A stretch of 64,000 nucleotides of DNA from Streptomyces sp. SW4 (lineage in GTDB: Bacteria > Actinomycetota > Actinomycetes > Streptomycetales > Streptomycetaceae): contig QKWM01000004.1 of the NCBI GenBank assembly GCA_003248315.1, positions 2,601,001-2,665,000 on the forward strand, given 5' to 3'. Below, piece by piece: positions 51,395 to 60,467 of the stretch. The first letter of the stretch is position 1. The number at the start of each line of letters is the position of its first letter. The translations under genes and the position numbers were made by a program. The notes beneath the pieces were generated by a model. That model did not search any database and was not told the DNA's origin. It worked only from the letters and a program-made list of their open reading frames with translations.

Positions 51395-51572
51395 CGTACC
51401 GGCGACGACGGCTGATATCGGGCGAGACACCCCATTTGTCCCGGGTTCGCCAGCAGGGCTCCGGCCAGGAAGAATCAGGGTGCGTGCCGCCGCGGCGGTG
51501 CGGTGGTGAGACGCTGCACACGGTCGCGTACATAAGTGGGTGACGCGGCTCGTACGGGGAGGTGGCAGGCAA

Positions 51573-53989
51573 GTGGTGGATCAGCTGACGCAGCACGATC
51601 CTCGGCGGATCGGGCCGTTCGAGGTGCTGGGACGGCTGGGGGCCGGCGGCATGGGGCTGGTCTATCTCGCACGGTCGGCGTCCGGCCGGCGCGTGGCGAT
51701 CAAGACCGTCCGCACCGAACTGGCCGAGGACCAGCTCTTCCGCGTCCGCTTCACGCGCGAGGTCGAGGCGGCCCGGGCCGTCTCCGGCTTCTACACGGCC
51801 GCCGTGGTCGACGCCGACCCCCGCGCCGCCGTGCCGTGGCTGGCCACCGCCTACGTGCCCGCGCCCTCCCTCGAGGAGATAGTGAACGAGTGCGGGCCGC
51901 TCCCGGCCCAGGCCGTGCGCTGGCTGGCGGCCGGCGTCGCCGAGGCGCTCCAGTCGATCCACGGCGCGGGCCTGGTCCACCGCGACCTGAAGCCCTCCAA
52001 CGTCCTGGTGGTCGAGGACGGCCCCGGGTGATCGACTTCGGCATCGCCTCCGGCGTCTCGAACACCCGTCTGACCATGACGAACGTCGCGGTCGGCACCC
52101 CGGCCTACATGTCCCCGGAGCAGGCGAAGGACTCCCGCAGCGTCACCGGCGCCAGCGACGTCTTCTCCCTCGGCTCCACCCTCGTCTTCGCCGCCACCGG
52201 ACACGCCCCGTTCCACGGCGCCAACCCCGTCGAGACCGTCTTCATGCTGCTGCGCGAGGGTCCCGACCTCGAGGGCCTGCCCGACGAGCTGCGCCCCCTG
52301 ATCGAGTCCTGCATGCAGATGGAGGCCGCAGCCCGCCCCAGCCCCGCCGACCTCCAGGCCCAGCTCGCCCCGCACCTGTTCGGCTCCGGCTCGGACGACA
52401 GCGGCACGGCGTCGGCGTGGCTGCCCGAGCGGGCGGTCAGCCTCATCGAGGCCCGCCGGGGCGGCCGCCCGGCGGCCAAGCCCGCCACTCACGGACACGG
52501 CGCCGGTCACGGGCTCGGCGGACACGGGCCCGGCGGCGGCCGGAGCGGCGGCAGCGGCGGGGCTCCGCGCCCGCCCGTCGTCCCGCCCCCGCCGGCGCAC
52601 GACCCCGTCGTCCCGGCCCACCCGGCGCCTGCCTCCGTCGGCGCACCCGACACCGGACCCGTGCAGCTGGCCGGCGCCGCCGTGCCCATCGGCCCCGGCC
52701 CCCGCGTCGCCGACATGCGTGCCGCCGCCGTCAAGGCGCCCCCGCCGGAGTCCGCCCTCGCCGGCTCCTGGTCCCGGCCCCGGCCCGGCGTCAACGGCGC
52801 CGACCCCGCCGTCGCCGCCGCGCCGCCCGCCCCGACGGCACCCCCGGAGGCGGCGGCCACCGGCTGGCGCCCCTGGCGGTTCCGCATGTCCAACGACGTC
52901 TGGGGCACCCCCGCCGTCGCCGACGACCTCGTCTACGTCACCTCCTTCGAGGTGCACGCCCTGGACGTGGCGACCGGCCGGCGACGCTTCAAGACCCGGG
53001 ACGTCGCCTGGTCCATGGCGGTCGCCGACGGCCGTGTCCACGCCTCCGACGGCCCCACCCTCTTCGCCCTCGACGCCCGCGAGGGCACCGACCTGTGGCG
53101 CATCCAGACGGACGCCTGGGTGTACGCGCTGAAGGCCGACCGGGGCACGGTCGTCACCGGCACCCGCGGCGGCGGCGTCCAGGCCTGGGAAGCCGCCAAC
53201 GGGCGCAAACTGTGGGAGATCACCGGCTGCCAGACCGACTTCGAGTCCCCGGAGGCCGGCCCGGCCCTCCACGACGGCACCGTGTACGTCTGGCAGGACG
53301 CCCGGCTGCGCGCCCTGGACGCCCGCACCGGCGACGAACGCTGGTCGTACCCCATCGGCGACGCCGCCTCCTGCGGCGGCGTACCCGTCCGCGTCGCCCA
53401 GGCGCCCGACGGCTACGCCTACGTCTCCGCCGGCACCCGGGTCCTCGCCCTCGACGTGGCCGGCGGACACGTCAAGTGGCACTTCGAGGCCCCGGCGGTC
53501 TTCCTCTCCCCACCCGCCTTCGTCCCCGGCCCGGCCGTCACCGGCGGCGGCGTCTACCTCGCCGACTACCTCGGCACCGTCTACGCCCTCGACGCCGCCG
53601 ACGGCCGCGACCGCTGGCGCATCGCCACCGAGTCCCGCGCCTCGATCGACCCCGTCCTGGTCGCCGCGGGCCACGTCCACGTCGGCAGCGGCAAGGGCCT
53701 GTACACGCTGGACGCGGTCACCGGTACGCCCAAGTGGCGCTTCCAGGCCGGCGGCGACATCGTGGGCGCGCCCGCGGTGGCGGAGGGCCGCATCCACTTC
53801 GGCTCCACGGACCACCTCCTGTACACCCTCAAGGCCGACGACGGCCGCCTCCGCTGGAAACTGGCGACCGGCGGCGAGATCACCGGCTCGCCCGTCGTCC
53901 GGGACGGCATCGTGTACGCGTGCAGCAAGGACCGGTGCGTGTACGCGCTGGACGCGGAGAAGGGCACCGGGACGGCACGGACGGCGTGA
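51573..53989 (+). CDS. afsK: AfsK Ser/Thr kinase with PQQ-like propeller (frameshifted)
   Basis: About 805 residues, close to the 799 of S. coelicolor AfsK from memory. It starts VVDQLTQHDPRRIGPFEVLG after GGGGAGG. Kinase domain: GRLGAGGMGLVYLARS, VAIKTVRTEL, VHRDLKPSNVLVVEDGP, DFGIASGVSNTRLTMTNVAV, GTPAYMSPEQA. A Pro/His/Gly linker follows, then PQQ-type propeller blades (VYVTSFEVHALDVATGRR, VYVWQDARLRALDARTGDER and others) from about residue 450. One C is missing near 52028. AfsK autophosphorylates at the membrane face and phosphorylates AfsR, and KbpA inhibits it. No membrane helix is obvious. Confidence 0.9.
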
Positions 53990-54396: not shown

Positions 54397-54720
54397 CCGC
54401 CTGATGGTGAGGTGACCGTCGGGGCCGCCCGCTTCCTTGTCAGTGTCGTGCTTCCGCGGGCCGAGTAAAGGGCGCTGCGCTTCGCTCCGCGTCGGCTGCG
54501 CCGATGGGCCTGCGGCCCACCCTTGACTCGTCCCGCTCCAGCACGGGGAAGAAGCGAGCGAGCGGCCCGGAAAGGCGGGTGGCCGACCGGCAAGCCCCAT
54601 CAAGTCGGCCACGTCCTCACCCGGCGTTCGGGCCCGCATCCGCGCCTCGCCAGCACGCCGGGCCGGCTCGGCGGCTTGCGGTGGGTGGGGGTGGGGGGAG
54701 TGGGGGTGCGGTGGCGCAGA
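54397..54720. repeat. Left arm of a 324-base inverted repeat
   Basis: The sequence from CCGCCTGATGGTGAGG (54397) through CGGTGGCGCAGA (54720) recurs in inverse orientation at 55577-55254 with only one-base length differences in G runs near 54632 and 54698. The outer part is moderate in GC, the inner part is G-rich (runs of GGGTGGGGGTGGGGGG). No transposase is inside. Confidence 0.9.
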
Positions 54721-55253
54721 AGGGGCTTCGGGGCACGCCGGGTGGATTCGGCGGCTTGCGGGGGGTGTGGGGGTGCGGCGGTGGCGCGGTGGTGGCTCGG
54801 GCGTGCCGGGTCGGCTTGGCGGCTGACGACCGGTGGGTGGGGCGATGGGCGGTGGCGGGGCGGGTGCGACGGCGCGCGAGCGCGGCCTGGGGCCGTCACA
54901 GGGGTCTCACCCGCCCCGTCAACTGGGTGATCGGTGCGTTTGTCTCGCGGGTGGGGGCGGTGGGGGGCCCTCTGCCAGGGGATGGGGAGTGTGGGTGAGA
55001 CATCGGCTCCGATCACTGCTCAAGGGGATGGGCGGTCCCGGCTCAGCCCTTGCCCTCAAACGCCGTACGCCCTTTCCCCGCCCACGGTCCGCAAGCCGTC
55101 GAACGTGCCCCCCATTCCCCCTTCGGCGCCACCGCACCCCGCCCAAGCCGCCGAGCCCACCCGGCGTGCCCGAGCCACCACCGCGCCACCGCCGCACCCC
55201 CACACCCATCCCCCGCAAGCCGCCGAGCTCGCCGGCGTGCCACCAGAGCACTC
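54721..55253. other. Spacer of the inverted repeat, G- or C-rich modules
   Basis: No supported gene. Diverged copies of an approximately 70-80 base module (CACGCCGGG, then CGGCGGCTTGCGG, then GGGGGTGCGGTGGCGC) extend the inverted symmetry inward. The centre (about 54920-55030) is non-repetitive and contains GTGATCGG and CCGATCAC facing each other. Confidence 0.7.
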
Positions 55254-55577
55254 TCTGCGCCACCGCACCCCCACCCCCCCACCCCCACCCACCGCAAGCC
55301 GCCGAGCCGGCCCGGCGTGCTGGCGAGGCGCGGATGCGGGCCCCGAACGCCGGGTGAGGACGTGGCCGACTTGATGGGGCTTGCCGGTCGGCCACCCGCC
55401 TTTCCGGGCCGCTCGCTCGCTTCTTCCCCGTGCTGGAGCGGGACGAGTCAAGGGTGGGCCGCAGGCCCATCGGCGCAGCCGACGCGGAGCGAAGCGCAGC
55501 GCCCTTTACTCGGCCCGCGGAAGCACGACACTGACAAGGAAGCGGGCGGCCCCGACGGTCACCTCACCATCAGGCGG
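55254..55577. repeat. Right arm of the 324-base inverted repeat
   Basis: Mirror copy of 54397-54720. Its outer end supplies the TGA stop of the minus-strand DUF559 gene (55572-55570), so the arm boundary coincides with that gene's last codons. Confidence 0.9.
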
Positions 55578-56561
55578 GCGCTCGGGTGCCTCCGGGTCGG
55601 CCCCCGCATGCGTCAGCCAGTGCCTCGCGGATCTCCCTCACCATCTGCTCAGGCCGGTGCAGCACGTCCTCGGCTCCGTATCTGAGCAGGCGCCGCACCT
55701 CGGGCAGCCGAGGATCTCGTTGAAGCGGGCCATGTCCCGGCGGTGGGCGTCGCGGGAGCCGTGGTAGGCGTAGCCCTCGATCTCCACGGCCACGCCCTCC
55801 GCCCGGAACAGGAAGTCCAGGTAGCGGCGGCGTCCTCGCGCCGTCCGCACTTCTGCCTGCGTCTCCGGGTGCAACCCGGCGTCCAGCATGCGCAGGCGGG
55901 CCAGCGTCTCCGCCGGTGACCCTGCGCCCCGGTCCGCGAGCCTCCACCACGTACGTGCACGGGTGCGACCCAGAAGCGGCGCCTCCAGGGCGAGTTCGAC
56001 TGCGGCCGGGGTGATGAGCGGCGGGCGGCGCTTCCCGTCGACCCTGCGGTAGCCGAGCGCGGACTCCACGGCCACGACGGCGTCGTCCCTGGGGCCGCGC
56101 CGCAGCAGATCGGCGACAGTCCGGCCGACGTCCGTGACCCGTAGCCCGCCGCCCAGCCTCACGACGTCGGTTTCGTCGAGGGGGATGCGGTGTACGCGGG
56201 CGTCCGGCAGCCGTTGCCTGAACGTGAGCGCCGGGTCGGTGAATTCGAGGAGGGGGAGCCTGCCGGTCCCACGGCCGCCCGCCCCACGGGCGCTTGTGTC
56301 CAGCGTCTCGATTCCCCAGAGCCGGGCGGCCGAGCGGTGACTCACGACGAGGCGCGGGGTGACGAGCTGCGTGGTCCTCAGCCGGACGCCGAGGCCGACC
56401 GCGTCCCCGCGTGGTTCGGACCAGACCCCCTGCCGGACCGGTGTCCAGCCCTCCGACCTCAGCCGGCGGGCGAGCGTAGCCCGCGACCAGCCGGCCGCCA
56501 GCGCCCGCGAGCTGAGCAGCAGCCCGCCCTCGACCAGTTCGCGCAACTCCTTCCGCTCCAC
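55570..56561 (-). CDS. AbiEi-antitoxin-like/DUF559 protein (frameshifted at the 3' end)
   Basis: About 330 residues. The GTG at 56561 starts VERKELRELVEGGLLLSSRA; the N-terminal winged-helix region (GWSRATLARRLRSEGWTPVR) resembles the AbiEi antitoxin family of type IV toxin-antitoxin systems. The C-terminal part (RRYLDFLFRAEGVAVEIEGY and AYHGSRDAHRRDMARFNEIL) is the DUF559/Vsr-like nuclease fold with Asp and Glu in place. A one-base break near 55713 leads to LPEVRRLLRYGAEDVLHRPE and a stop inside the inverted repeat. No toxin partner gene adjoins, so regulation or DNA processing are both possible. Confidence 0.7.
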
Positions 56562-56601
56562 GGTCTCAGTGTGCCGCCGAACGGAACAGCCGTCCCGAGC
56601 C

Positions 56602-56610
56602 TGTGGACAA
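56602..56610 (-). promoter_or_regulatory. Consensus DnaA box
   Basis: TTGTCCACA on the minus strand, the exact Streptomyces DnaA consensus, isolated in the intergenic space upstream of the DUF559 gene. No cluster of boxes is present, so it is not an origin. Confidence 0.4.
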
Positions 56611-56727
56611 CCGGGCTCGGGGCCTTGGCTCGTCACCGACCGGTACCGGACCCGGGTGGCCGGTGGCGGCCTCGACGCCGCTGAGGCCGAGGGCTTCGCT
56701 CGGCCTCAGCGGTGACCATGTGGGGCG

Positions 56728-56874
56728 TCAGGGCATGTTGTTGTCCAGCGGGGCGACGACCCCGTCGTGCGGGCTCACCGGCATCTGGTTGTCGGCCAGC
56801 GCCGGGCCCGCGGCAGCGCCCGTGACGCCGATGATCAGGGCGAGGGTGGCGAGGATCTTCCTGGTGAGGCTCAT
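56728..56874 (-). CDS. Small secreted peptide with DNxMP motifs, downstream of afsS
   Basis: 48 residues from an ATG at 56874 after AGGAGCAACG. A signal peptide (MSLTRKILATLALIIGVTG, then AAAGPALA) is followed by a 20-residue mature tail containing DNQMP and ending LDNNMP. AfsS, encoded just upstream, is built from DNAMP repeats (TTLDNAMP), so the two share a motif while one is cytoplasmic and the other exported. The gene lies 176 bases after afsS in the same direction, behind a strong terminator and a 20-base palindrome, so it has its own promoter. The function is unknown. Confidence 0.7.
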   Translation of the reverse strand: MSLTRKILATLALIIGVTGAAAGPALADNQMPVSPHDGVVAPLDNNMP

Positions 56875-56933
56875 CGTTGCTCCTGGCTGGTGAGGAATCC
56901 CTGACGGTTGGGACGCTAGCGGTAGACGAGGCG

Positions 56934-56953
56934 GTGTTCGGACGGTCGAACAC
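56934..56953. promoter_or_regulatory. Palindrome GTGTTCG-N6-CGAACAC upstream of the secreted peptide gene
   Basis: Perfect seven-base arms at 56934-56940 and 56947-56953, 60 bases before the ATG of the peptide gene. Probably an operator for that gene. Confidence 0.5.
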
Positions 56954-56993: not shown

Positions 56994-57033
56994 GTCGGCC
57001 GCGGCGGCTCCCCTCCGCGCCGCCGCGGCCGAC
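56994..57033. terminator. Terminator of afsS
   Basis: Perfect 15-base arms (56994-57008 and 57019-57033) with a ten-base loop, 18 bases after the afsS stop on the minus strand. Confidence 0.75.
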
Positions 57034-57050: not shown

Positions 57051-57239
57051 CTACTTGCCGTCGCGGTCCAGAGCGGGCGGCGTCGGCATGGCGTTGTCCA
57101 ACGTGGTGACGCCCTCTGTCTTGGCCGGCCCGCTGGGCATGGCGTTGTCGAGCGTCGTCACCGTCTCGCCGTCAGCCGGCGGCGTGGGCATGGCGTTGTC
57201 CTGAGGAGTGGCCTCTGCGTCCTTGTTCTTGTCGCTCAT
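57051..57239 (-). CDS. afsS: AfsS, secondary-metabolism activator peptide
   Basis: 62 residues, intact, starting MSDKNKDAEATPQDNAMPTP after GAAGGAAGAG. It contains three DNAMP units, two of them TTLDNAMP, the repeat signature of AfsS (63 residues in S. coelicolor from memory). AfsS is a small protein whose expression, driven by AfsR, raises antibiotic production; its mode of action is unresolved. It lies 210 bases downstream of afsR and is read in the same direction from its own promoter (see 57408). The terminator at 56994 ends it. Confidence 0.92.
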   Translation of the reverse strand: MSDKNKDAEATPQDNAMPTPPADGETVTTLDNAMPSGPAKTEGVTTLDNAMPTPPALDRDGK

Positions 57240-57407: not shown

Positions 57408-57425
57408 GATAAACGAATGCTGAAC
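57408..57425 (-). promoter_or_regulatory. afsS: AfsR/PhoP-type direct repeat upstream of afsS
   Basis: On the minus strand GTTCAGC-ATTC-GTTTATC: two seven-base units with an 11-base period, the arrangement of PHO boxes (GTTCACC units) and SARP sites. In S. coelicolor AfsR and PhoP compete for such a site over the afsS -35 region (established knowledge, from memory). It lies 25 bases after the afsR stop and 169 bases before afsS. Confidence 0.6.
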
Positions 57426-57449
57426 GCCCCTGTCCCCTTCTGCAGTGCC

Positions 57450-60419
57450 TCAGGCCGCAGCCGAGGGCGCGAGCAGTTTGCGCACCTCGTCGGCCTCGGG
57501 CGCGGTGCACTGGTCGTAGAGATTGACCGCCTCGCGCCAGCACGCCTGCGCCCTGTCCACCTGGCCCAACCCGGACAGCGCACGCCCGAGGAGCGTCAGG
57601 ACGTTACCGCGCATGCGGTCACCTCCGATGCAGCCCAGCGCCAGGGCCTGTTCCGCGTGCTGTGCCGCCCGCGCCGGGCGCCGGGCAGCCAGGTGGACCT
57701 CGGCGATACGAAAGTTGGTGGTCCCCTGCCAGAGACGTTGCCGGTGGTCCTCGAAGATCCGCAACGCGTCGGAGAACTGCTCCAGGGCCTCTTCGTGGCG
57801 GTCGGCCCTCGTGAGGGCGATCCCCAGGGTGAAGTGACCGTTGGCGAGGCGCATCGTGCGTCCGATGTCGAGGTGTGCCTCAAGGCCTCGGTGAGCGATC
57901 GACACAGCCTTGGCGATGTTGCCCATGCCCAGATGGGCGCGGGAGAGATTGGACAGGCTGAGGGCTTCGCCCGCGCGGTTGTCCGCCGTCCGGTATCCCT
58001 CGATGGCCTGCTCCAGGAACACCCTGCCATCCGCGAAGCGCCCCTGGTGCAGCGAGATGAGGCCCCGGTCGTTGGCCACCCAGCTGACTGCCGTCGTGTC
58101 ACTCACGGACTGCGCCAGGGCCATGGCCAACTCAGCCTGTTCGGCCGCTTGCTGGATGCGTCCGGAGATCAACAGCACATTGGTGAGCGTGGTGCGTGCC
58201 CGGCCTTCCGCTCGGGGTCTCCGGCGGCATGGGTCGCGTCACACATCGCTCGGGCCGTCATCTCGTACTGACGTGAGTTCGCCCCGGACTCCGTCAGATC
58301 CTTCGCCGCCCACAGCAGATCAACGGCGCGCCGCAGCCTGTCCGTGCCGACGGCCTGCCGTACGCAGGCGAGCAGGGCTGCTGCCTCGGTGTAGAGCCAG
58401 TCCAGCGCGGCCGAGCCTTCGGTGAAGTCCAGCCCGGGGTACGAGGTCGGCTCCAGGCCGTCCACCAACCGATCCCCGGCCGTTCGATCGCGTACACGCC
58501 CGCTGCTGTCGCCAGGTAGAAGTCCAGCAGGCGGGACAGCGCCGCGTCCCGTTCGCGAGGGGGCCACTCGTCGCGTTCGGCGCAGGCGCGGGCGTACAGG
58601 CGGACCAGGTCGTGGAAGCGGTAGCGGCCGGGGGCCGCCGATTCCAGGAGGGACGTGTCGACCAGGGACTCCAGCAGGTCCTCCGTCTCCTCCAGGGGGA
58701 GGTCGAGGACCGCGGCCGCGGCGGCGAGGGAGATGTCGGGGCCGTCGGCCAGGCCGAGGAGGCGGAAGGCGCGGGCCTGGGCCGGCTCCAGTTGGCCGTA
58801 GCCCAGTTCGAACGTCGCCTCGACCGCCAGGTCGCCCGCCTGGAGTTCGTCCAGGCGGCGGCGTTCGTCCGCCAGCTTGGCGGCGAGGACGGAGACCGTC
58901 CAGGTGCGGCGGGCCGCCAGGCGGGACGCCGCGATGCGGATCGCCAGCGGCAGGAAGCCGCACGCCGCCACCACGTCCAGGGCGGCCTGGCGTTCCGAGG
59001 CCACCCTCTCCTCGCCGACGATCTTCGTGAACAGCGCCAGCGCCTCGTCGGGGGACATCACGTCCAGGTCGACCAGGTGGGCGCCGGCCAGGCCCACCAT
59101 GCGGACCCTCGACGTCACCAGGGCCGCGCAGCCCGCCGTCCCCGGCAGCAGGGGCGGACCTGGGCGGCGTCGCGGGCGTTGTCCAGCAGGACGAGGACCC
59201 GGCGGCCGTCGAGCACGGACCGGTACAGCGCCGCCCGTTCCTCCAGCGTGTCCGGGATCGCCGAGTCCGGTGTGCCGAGCGCGCGGAGGAAGGAGCCGAG
59301 GACGGTCTCCGGTTCGGCGGCGCGGGGCCGGCGCCCTGCAGGTCGACGTACAACTGGCCGTCGGGGAAGGCGGATCGGGCGCCGTGGGCGACGTGGACGG
59401 CCAGCGTGGTCTTGCCGACGCCGCCGATGCCGGCCAGCGCCGACACGGCCATCACCCGTCCCTCGGGCTCGCGGTCCCCGGACGCCGATGCGAGGACGTC
59501 GCTCAGTTCGCGGACGAAGGAGGAGCGGCCGGTGAAGTCCGGCACCGTGGCGGGGAGCTGGGCCGGGCGGACCGGGGCCGCGGCCGGTTCCGCGGCGGGC
59601 GACGACGGTTCGGCCAGGGTGGGGTCGGCGCGCAGGACCCGCTGCTGGAGGTCGCGCAGCGCGGGGCCCGGGTCGACGCCGAGTTCCTCGGCCAGCAGGC
59701 GGCGGGTGTCGGCGTACACCGCGAGCGCCTCGGCCTGGCGTCCGCTGCGGTAGAGCGCCAGCATCAGCAGCTCGCGCAGGCGTTCGCGGAGCGGGTGGGC
59801 CGCCGTCAGCGCGGTCAGTTCGGAGACCGCCTCGGCGTGGCAGCCCTGCTCCAGGTCCATGTCGAGGCGGGTTTCGAGGAGTTGGAGGCGCCATTCCTCC
59901 AGGCGGACCCGCTGGGCCTGCGCGTACGGGCCGGGCACGCCCGCCAGTACCTCGCCGTCCCAGAGGGCGAGCGCGCGGCGCAGCACCTCGCGCGCCTGGC
60001 ACAGGTCCCCGGCGCTGCGCGCCTTCTCCGCCTGTGCCGCCAGGTCCTGGGCGACCGCCAGGTCCAGCGCCCCGTCGGCCAGCCCGCGCACCGCGTAGCC
60101 CCCGACTCGCTGACCAGGACACCGGCGTCGAGGACCTTGCGCAGCCGGGACGCGTAGGTCCGCACGGCCGCCAGGGCCTGCGACGGCGGTTCCTCGCCCC
60201 ACAGCGCGTCGATCAGCTCGGCGGCCGTGGCCGTGCGGCCCTCGCGCAGCAGCAGGGCGGCCAGCAGCGCGCGTTGCTGGGGGAGCCGGTGGCCAGCGGT
60301 TCCTCGCCGCGCCAGGCCCGCACCGGGCCGAGCACGCCGAAGCGCAGGGGTGCTGCCGCCGGTTCCGCCGTGGAGCCGTCGGCGCGCCGCTGCTCCGGGA
60401 CCCGCGGTTCACCGTCCAT
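57450..60419 (-). CDS. afsR: AfsR, SARP-family global regulator (frameshifted)
   Basis: About 991 residues after repair, against 993 in S. coelicolor from memory. Start MDGEPRVPEQRRADGSTAEP. The SARP winged helix (LRFGVLGPVRAWRGEEPLAT, then SPQQRALLAALLLREGRTAT) and BTAD domain (residues about 130-270: LTALTAAHPLRERLRELLML) precede an NB-ARC ATPase with AGIGGVGKTTLAVHVAHGAR and VLVLLDNARDAAQVRPLLPG, then TPR-like C-terminal repeats. Six one-base losses lie near 60287, 60103, 59330, 59147, 58482 and 58197. It is phosphorylated by AfsK and activates afsS. Confidence 0.92.
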
Positions 60420-60467
60420 GCCGTCGTCCCCCTAGACATCCTGAGCAACCCTGTCAGTTTGCCTTGT

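Follow-up and report, generated by a model that had tools for sequence, protein, structure and literature searches.

Regulators of the SARP-NOD-TPR architecture, of the STAND kind, are represented in Streptomyces by AfsR, a control protein of antibiotic production with a C-terminal TPR sensor; whether an inducer binds this sensor 'remains elusive' (PMC10936776). The word 'ligand' does not occur in that text, and none of the passages that we consulted names a peptide inducer. AfsS, the product of the neighbouring gene, is placed downstream of AfsR by reviews (PMC10972967) and is reported to act there by an unknown mechanism (PMC2267785, PMC10972967). Peptide sensing by a SARP has a precedent in NosP of S. 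actuosus, reported to respond to peptidyl ligands from a precursor peptide (cited in PMC10972967). The ligand of NosP comes from a thiopeptide precursor encoded in a biosynthetic cluster and not from a dedicated secreted motif peptide. In the RRNPP peptide-pheromone systems, such as PapR-PlcR and Phr-Rap (PMC10075063), a small propeptide gene lies beside the gene for a TPR regulator, the propeptide carries a signal peptide, and the active peptide, at the C-terminus, is re-imported by an oligopeptide permease and bound inside the cell. Finally, the TPR domains of LGN/Pins and of kinesin light chain (KLC) bind short linear peptides, but these are eukaryotic scaffolds without a pheromone role.

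Here, we describe a small gene beside afsR and afsS in Streptomyces sp. SW4 whose product, predicted to be secreted, repeats the same short motif as AfsS. The window, that is, the whole stretch of DNA that was analysed, comprises 64,000 nucleotides (GCA_003248315.1, contig QKWM01000004.1, positions 2,601,001 to 2,665,000). The features of the locus, in window coordinates, are as follows.

56728–56874, minus strand: gene of the predicted secreted peptide, 48 codons plus stop, ending in LDNNMP.
56794–56874, minus strand: predicted signal peptide (MSLTRK, hydrophobic core, ALA), aligned with MTRTKK...PALA of homologues, without the use of a signal-peptide predictor.
56728–56793, minus strand: predicted mature tail DNQMPVSPHDGVVAPLDNNMP plus stop, with the motif at both ends.
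56880–56884, minus strand: ribosome-binding site AGGAG, five bases before the ATG, read by eye.
56913–56918, minus strand: TAGCGT, candidate −10 element, identified by eye, also seen in some close relatives and not found by a sigma-70 scan.
56934–56953: dyad GTGTTCGACCGTCCGAACAC upstream of the peptide gene, seen as GTTCGA-N5-TCGAAC in some relatives.
56996–57031: GC-rich hairpin between afsS and the peptide gene, a possible afsS terminator, identified by eye and not reported by a T-run terminator scan.
57051–57239, minus strand: afsS, 62 aa, three DNAMP repeats.
57408–57426, minus strand: afs box (AfsR direct repeats) upstream of afsS, CGTTCAGCATTCGTTTATC.
57450–58178, minus strand: C-terminal TPR (sensor) domain of AfsR (Pfam TPR_2/TPR_12).
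58047–58049, minus strand: codon of TPR residue 44, His here.

The first-pass annotation had noted a 48-residue peptide with a signal sequence and a 20-residue mature tail sharing the DNxMP motif with AfsS, encoded 176 bases away on the same strand. Our analysis confirms this observation, and extends it. The peptide MSLTRKILATLALIIGVTGAAAGPALADNQMPVSPHDGVVAPLDNNMP is encoded on the minus strand and reads MSLTRKILATLALIIGVTGAAAGPALA up to the predicted cleavage site and DNQMPVSPHDGVVAPLDNNMP beyond it, so that cleavage after AxA would leave 21 residues and not 20. The gap of 176 bases to afsS was retrieved. Several lines of evidence indicate more than chance. The NCBIfam model of AfsS (NF053616, RegAfsSStmc), which scores the AfsS of the window at 92.1 bits, also picks out residues 28–48 of the peptide, although weakly (E = 6.6e-4, 20.2 bits) and below the cut-off of 60 bits. 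The pattern GAYAAYNNNATGCCNTRR (D-N-x-M-P followed by a stop or TGG) occurs once in the 7.48 Mb assembly (83.4% complete), at this very place, whereas its reversed control occurs 0 times. Three close homologues are 60–71% identical, the GC3 of the ORF is 0.98, and dN is below dS in all five comparisons with the window's copy (0.156–0.289 versus 0.250–0.393), although nearly equal in one of them. In the surroundings, afsR is split over several frames (57450–60448, minus strand; ORFs 60448–58169, 60122–59115, 59118–58294 and 58178–57450) and afsK over two (51540–52031 and 51536–53989, plus strand), probably because of indels in the assembly. A large imperfect inverted repeat (54397–55577; 239-nt arms 100% complementary, with further arms inward) lies between afsK and the peptide gene, with mirrored ORFs on both strands, and the ORF downstream of the peptide gene (55638–56636, minus strand) has no Pfam match at E ≤ 0.01.

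A single-sequence search gave mostly weak hits; the two best after the window's own, L002 and L003, correspond to places later recognized as divergent family members at afsR (L175 and L185; L numbers designate the retrieved loci). Scanning afsS loci then revealed the colinear homologues. A 4-row profile found the peptide in 46 of 392 Streptomyces genomes (E ≤ 1e-4), and a 34-row profile in 79 of 392 (E ≤ 1e-5) and in 30 of 197 genomes of the order (E ≤ 1e-6), all in one of six genera. In 67 of the 79 genomes the peptide follows the AfsR TPR on the same strand, normally in the order afsR-afsS-peptide, with a median distance from the TPR end to the peptide start of 653.5 bases over the linked loci. 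It had been proposed in advance that such peptides being common and unlinked to afsS would speak against the first-pass interpretation, and this is not what we found. Of the 12 other genomes, nine have best E-values above 1e-7, and several of the hits are longer secreted proteins. The distance from AfsS stop to peptide start is 120–320 bases in 58 of 67 pairs with a positive gap. The small repeat ORF taken as AfsS in divergent species is supported by position and promoter, as a two-repeat afs box is found upstream of 63 of 67 afsS genes (250 bases searched), against 0 of 67 peptide genes (150 bases searched) and 0 of 67 shuffles at the same score (≥11 of 12). The peptide does not, therefore, appear as a direct target of AfsR within the 150 bases searched. 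NF053616 passes its cut-off in 62 of 392 genomes, and AfsS proteins whose motif ends in Thr, Ser or Gly (T/S/G class), recognized by position and afs box, largely fall below it.

In L126 (c.2950) and L206 (c.4030, both peptide-oriented), the profile match of the predicted secreted peptides DNHAGVAPQ and DNHSSVAPQ starts 65 and 136 bases downstream of a TPR protein, without an AfsR TPR hit; in L206 this protein is HTH_31-NB-ARC-TPR_12, perhaps a second STAND regulator with such a neighbour. L131 (c.2979) and L236 (c.3988) encode multi-copy secreted ENH/DNHAS repeat peptides with no AfsR TPR found in the stretch. In L208 (c.4041), a secreted peptide with DDGWSTV repeats lies near an oligoribonuclease-like gene and may represent another repeat-peptide family.

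The motif is hypervariable between species (DNAMP, GDGHMP, DNNHGT, ERHQT, DHYAS, STRP), and DNxMP is thus not the rule but the local variant. Nevertheless, AfsS and peptide of one genome share a variant. Among the clearest pairs (AfsS/peptide) are GEGHIP/GEGHLP (L146), GDSHMP/GDSHIP (L145), ENLHVT/ENVHVT (L179), NAHVT/NGHVT (L175), DHYAS/DHYSS (L200), ERHQT/ERHQS (L139), DNNHGT/DNNHSS (L186 and L205), DSNRP/DNNRP (L185) and DEQMPAPSP/DEHLPAPSP (L180), whereas others match less, for instance DTHAT/ENHAG (L137) and GDSHQP/DDHAS (L196). Over 67 pairs, the mean best local score of own pairs is 49.5 against 32.3 ± 1.3 for shuffled pairing (0 of 20000 permutations), and over 16 divergent loci (TPR identity below 60%) it is 42.7 against 27.0 ± 2.3 (0 of 20000). 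However, the own partner is the single best of 67 in only 10 cases starting from AfsS and 12 starting from the peptide, with median ranks of 7 and 6. As relatedness alone should not raise own over swapped scores between sisters, we also compared 33 path-disjoint pairs on the AfsR tree, in which the own pairing wins 22, loses 9 and ties 2 (Wilcoxon p = 0.003, sign test p = 0.015). The 16 closest pairs (TPR identity ≥0.74) go 6 for, 8 against and 2 ties, so that the signal comes from the 17 more distant pairs, with 16 for and 1 against. A later set, fetched after the profile was fixed, gives 55.1 against 35.2 ± 3.3 over 16 pairs (0 of 20000); in this set L237 repeats L114 and L236 has a spurious AfsS, both retained in the count of 16, and four of the 20 loci gave no AfsS. 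The last motif residue (Pro or not) agrees between AfsS and peptide in 65 of 67 loci, a tie being counted as Pro for the peptide.

The 67 pairs derive from 86 loci (the window, L112–L156 and L173–L212). We left out L113 (same DNA as L140), L112 (same DNA as L083, which was itself not in the input, so that genome G330 is missing from the pairs), 14 loci without the AfsR TPR, two without a recognized AfsS, and L151, whose peptide lacks a signal. The AfsS of L182 was chosen by its DNHQP repeat, and six AfsS N-termini were trimmed by hand. Three of the five profile hits in genome G396 and two on contig C18 of genome G237 were not retrieved with the others.

The predicted mature part of the peptide (median 32, range 15–83 residues, some cleavage sites being uncertain) begins with a motif in 61 of 67 loci by a loose pattern (56 by another pattern) and ends exactly with one in 37 of 67, where position alone would give 5.1 (0 of 20000), while 30 do not end in it. 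For AfsS, the same pattern gives 3 of 67, with 5.85 expected; these three matches are pattern accidents, whereas the AfsS of L200 and L201 does end in DHYAS, which the pattern misses. The motif patterns were written after seeing the sequences, and the expectation uses the same pattern at inner positions. A free C-terminal motif is what a processed peptide signal would need. Upstream, the dyad GTTCGA-N5-TCGAAC and the TAGCGT element are shared by some close relatives. The dyad is clear only in these (9 of 67 at ≥11 of 12 matches, against 0.0 in shuffles; 30 of 67 at ≥9, against 12.0), and like sites are not rare in the genome (21 places at one mismatch, 8 for the reversed control), so that we name no regulator. 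In the alignment of upstream DNA, the row of L212, taken at wrong coordinates, is ignored.

The AfsS motif also co-varies with the TPR sensor of AfsR. AfsS motif distance correlates with TPR distance (r = 0.573), also after removal of NB-ARC and arm distance (0.455), while NB-ARC given TPR gives −0.01; for the peptide motif the corresponding figures are 0.369, 0.251 and 0.163, and the peptide therefore follows AfsR less closely than AfsS does. This alone is weak evidence, since the TPR is the fastest AfsR domain (mean distance 0.476, versus 0.347 for the arm and 0.138 for NB-ARC), and part of the correlation may reflect better phylogenetic resolution. More telling is a single column, first noticed by mutual information. 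When 801 AfsR columns were scored for a residue common to loci of the T/S/G class and absent from the four lineages with Pro-ending motifs (P class), TPR residue 44 reached 0.967, the next column 0.635 (mean 0.117, SD 0.128). It is Tyr in 29 of 30 T/S/G-class loci and in 0 of 36 P-class loci, the window, with His, being left out of this count. As this score was devised after residue 44 had been seen, the later set is the independent check: Tyr is present in 7 of 9 T/S/G-class loci (Phe in L245, Ser in L247) and in 0 of 5 new P-class loci. In the 41 TPR stretches from the AfsS search loci, which have Pro-ending motifs, the residue is never Tyr, although some genomes occur twice there. At 387 columns conserved in the T/S/G class, the two lone P-class leaves depart at only 18 and 12; only two such columns are lost in both large P clades, and at one of them, residue 44, both lone leaves depart too. 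In the two loci with discordant AfsS and peptide, L133 and L196, residue 44 follows AfsS. There are exceptions, as L189 has Leu and L245 Phe, and L180 aligns as His or Leu in two alignments because of a one-residue insertion seen by eye, but is not Tyr in either. One P-class lineage is weak support, since L136 has both ENHAP and ENHAS repeats with Ser44, and its near relative L247 has ENHAS with the same Ser44. Independent class changes are moreover too few for formal significance (3–4 pairs, nearly always concordant, sign test p 0.125–0.5); directions of change are not inferred on the tree, and that Pro arose four times is our reading of four changes.

A model of the TPR from a single sequence was poor (pLDDT 42.5), whereas AlphaFold2 with a six-row alignment gave a confident one (mean pLDDT 90.3), in which residue 44 ends the helix 28–44. 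With G39 as position 8 of the TPR register, residue 44 is position 13, one of the ligand-facing positions; its predicted place in the groove thus rests on the register and not on geometry. Asn 36, 77 and 113 are nearly invariant. Besides AfsR itself (chains 8k60/8jke), the peptide-binding TPRs of LGN/Pins and KLC are among the best sequence and fold matches, with RapF further down.

The best explanation, which we hold to be about as likely as not, is that the ORF encodes an exported repeat peptide that belongs functionally to AfsR-AfsS. In this view, a signal peptide sends it out and cleavage after AxA frees a short peptide that begins, and often ends, with a species-specific motif ([DE]-x-H-x-P/T/S/G; DNxMP here), while AfsS carries tandem copies of the same variant in the cytoplasm. 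Both would be read by the same peptide-binding groove, most likely the TPR sensor of AfsR. AfsS, made by active AfsR from the afs box, would be the internal ligand in a feedback, and the peptide, taken back up whole or trimmed by an oligopeptide permease, would be the external ligand reporting on neighbours of the same motif type, a pheromone-like logic. The tighter covariation of AfsR with AfsS than with the peptide fits AfsS as the primary ligand and the peptide as a mimic that must keep up. Among the 30 best AfsS loci (L053–L082, about 1.5 kb flanks), only five have an intact-looking peptide and two a decayed remnant beside canonical afsS (L060 c.1863, ...QALADSHAP; L061 c.1838, ...VVIPQDSHMP), which fits a dispensable social signal but equally says that the AfsR-AfsS core works without it. 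We favour an agonist because raised afsS dosage stimulates antibiotics (PMC2267785), whereas the placement of AfsS downstream of AfsR in reviews speaks against this mechanism. What our data establish are the ORF, its linkage, the covariation of the motif between AfsS and peptide and of the AfsS motif class with TPR residue 44, the afs box at afsS with none seen at the peptide gene, and the motif at the C-terminus in about half of the peptides. Export is a prediction, and binding to AfsR, processing, re-import and the sign of the effect are inferences.

The first-pass annotation had suggested a shared partner or an origin by duplication, and raised the possibility of an extracellular signal linked to the AfsR pathway; this interpretation is supported in part. 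A shared partner is supported by the covariation, an origin by duplication remains possible, and an extracellular signal is the use that we favour, by inference.

Compared with AfsS, the peptide has the same motif variant within a genome and a neighbouring gene on the same strand, but it does not reach the family cut-off and no afs box was seen upstream of its gene; AfsS shows no signal peptide and seldom ends in the motif. Compared with RRNPP systems, we observed a small propeptide gene near a TPR gene, species-specific variants, a conserved n-region, hydrophobic core and AxA judged from the alignment alone, and a C-terminal motif in about half of the peptides. However, the neighbour is a SARP-NOD-TPR protein and not an RRNPP protein (HTH or effector plus TPR, without an NTPase domain), and an intracellular protein, AfsS, carries the same motif. 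The peptide is therefore not an AfsS, and as read here it would work like an RRNPP pheromone system, with re-import only inferred, but is not a member of that class. Literature searches on AfsS and AfsR and their feedback, afsS repeats, afsS with secreted or signal peptides, SCO4424, RRNPP systems in Streptomyces, peptide pheromones with SARP or TPR proteins, and BldK revealed no description of the peptide in the open literature searched (PMC2267785, PMC10936776, PMC3897704, PMC8914203 and PMC10972967 among it), most subscription journals not being covered. SCO4424 of S. coelicolor, listed as 'possible secreted protein' (PMC3897704), may or may not belong to this family; two genes separate afsK from afsR (PMC10936776).

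Alternatively, AfsS and the peptide could share the motif because both bind some other partner (AfsK, an unknown downstream regulator or a processing enzyme), the TPR covariation reflecting only phylogeny. The reported action of AfsS downstream of AfsR, the fast evolution of the TPR and the small number of independent class changes favour this reading. However, within AfsR, the only candidate partner compared, one TPR column and not the domain in general tracks the motif class, all four P-class lineages lack the Tyr, and the partial correlations for the AfsS motif point to the TPR and not to NB-ARC. We consider this alternative rather unlikely, though it is the likeliest of the rivals. Less likely still, the gene could be a duplicate of afsS that gained a signal peptide, the likeness persisting through duplication or gene conversion without a signalling role. 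The weak match of the AfsS model to the tail, the same-strand neighbourhood, the codons shared by tandem repeats inside each protein (0.60–0.63) and the absence of a covariation gain in the closest sister pairs are in line with this idea. Against it, codon identity between the two genes at matched 4-fold residues is at background (0.468 own, 0.459 cross, 0.435 for any same-residue pair) although the amino-acid motifs match, so that recent gene conversion is not supported and selection on the protein is suggested instead; the C-terminal placement of the motif is far above chance; and AfsR tracks the AfsS motif class. A metal-binding peptide appears very unlikely: cleavage after AxA would leave a free N-terminal X-X-His, the Cu/Ni-binding ATCUN signature, and residue 3 of the predicted mature peptide is His in 46 of 67 loci, but 21 of 67, including the window's own (DNQ), lack it (a few through an uncertain cleavage site), C-terminal copies cannot be ATCUN sites, and covariation with cytoplasmic AfsS and AfsR is left unexplained. 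A non-functional ORF with a chance motif, suggested by the patchy distribution with remnants and the frameshifts nearby, is hardly compatible with homologues in 79 of 392 genomes, conserved order and distance, the dyad in close relatives, the GC3 of 0.98 and dN below dS.

More tentatively, and with a probability that we put somewhat below even, there may be a three-part, co-evolving recognition code in Streptomyces, in which the STAND/TPR sensor of AfsR would be a peptide receptor whose specificity (residue 44 and neighbours) defines pherotypes, AfsS its internal multi-copy ligand and the small peptide its external, reimported ligand, so that antibiotic production would be gated by self and non-self peptide recognition. 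STAND regulators of other kinds may use the same trick, as the DNHxxVAPQ-type peptides of L126 and L206 could suggest. How AfsS acts, and what, if anything, the AfsR sensor binds, are described as unknown (PMC2267785, PMC10972967, PMC10936776). Our analysis shows that AfsS is more diverse than its database model, and a shared, hypervariable motif that tracks one residue of the AfsR TPR domain provides a concrete ligand–receptor hypothesis. It points to an unrecognized peptide signal in antibiotic control, the peptide being carried by a good share of Streptomyces, adds a possible extracellular peptide input to a global antibiotic switch in this genus, and suggests synthetic pentapeptides as possible elicitors of silent antibiotic clusters.
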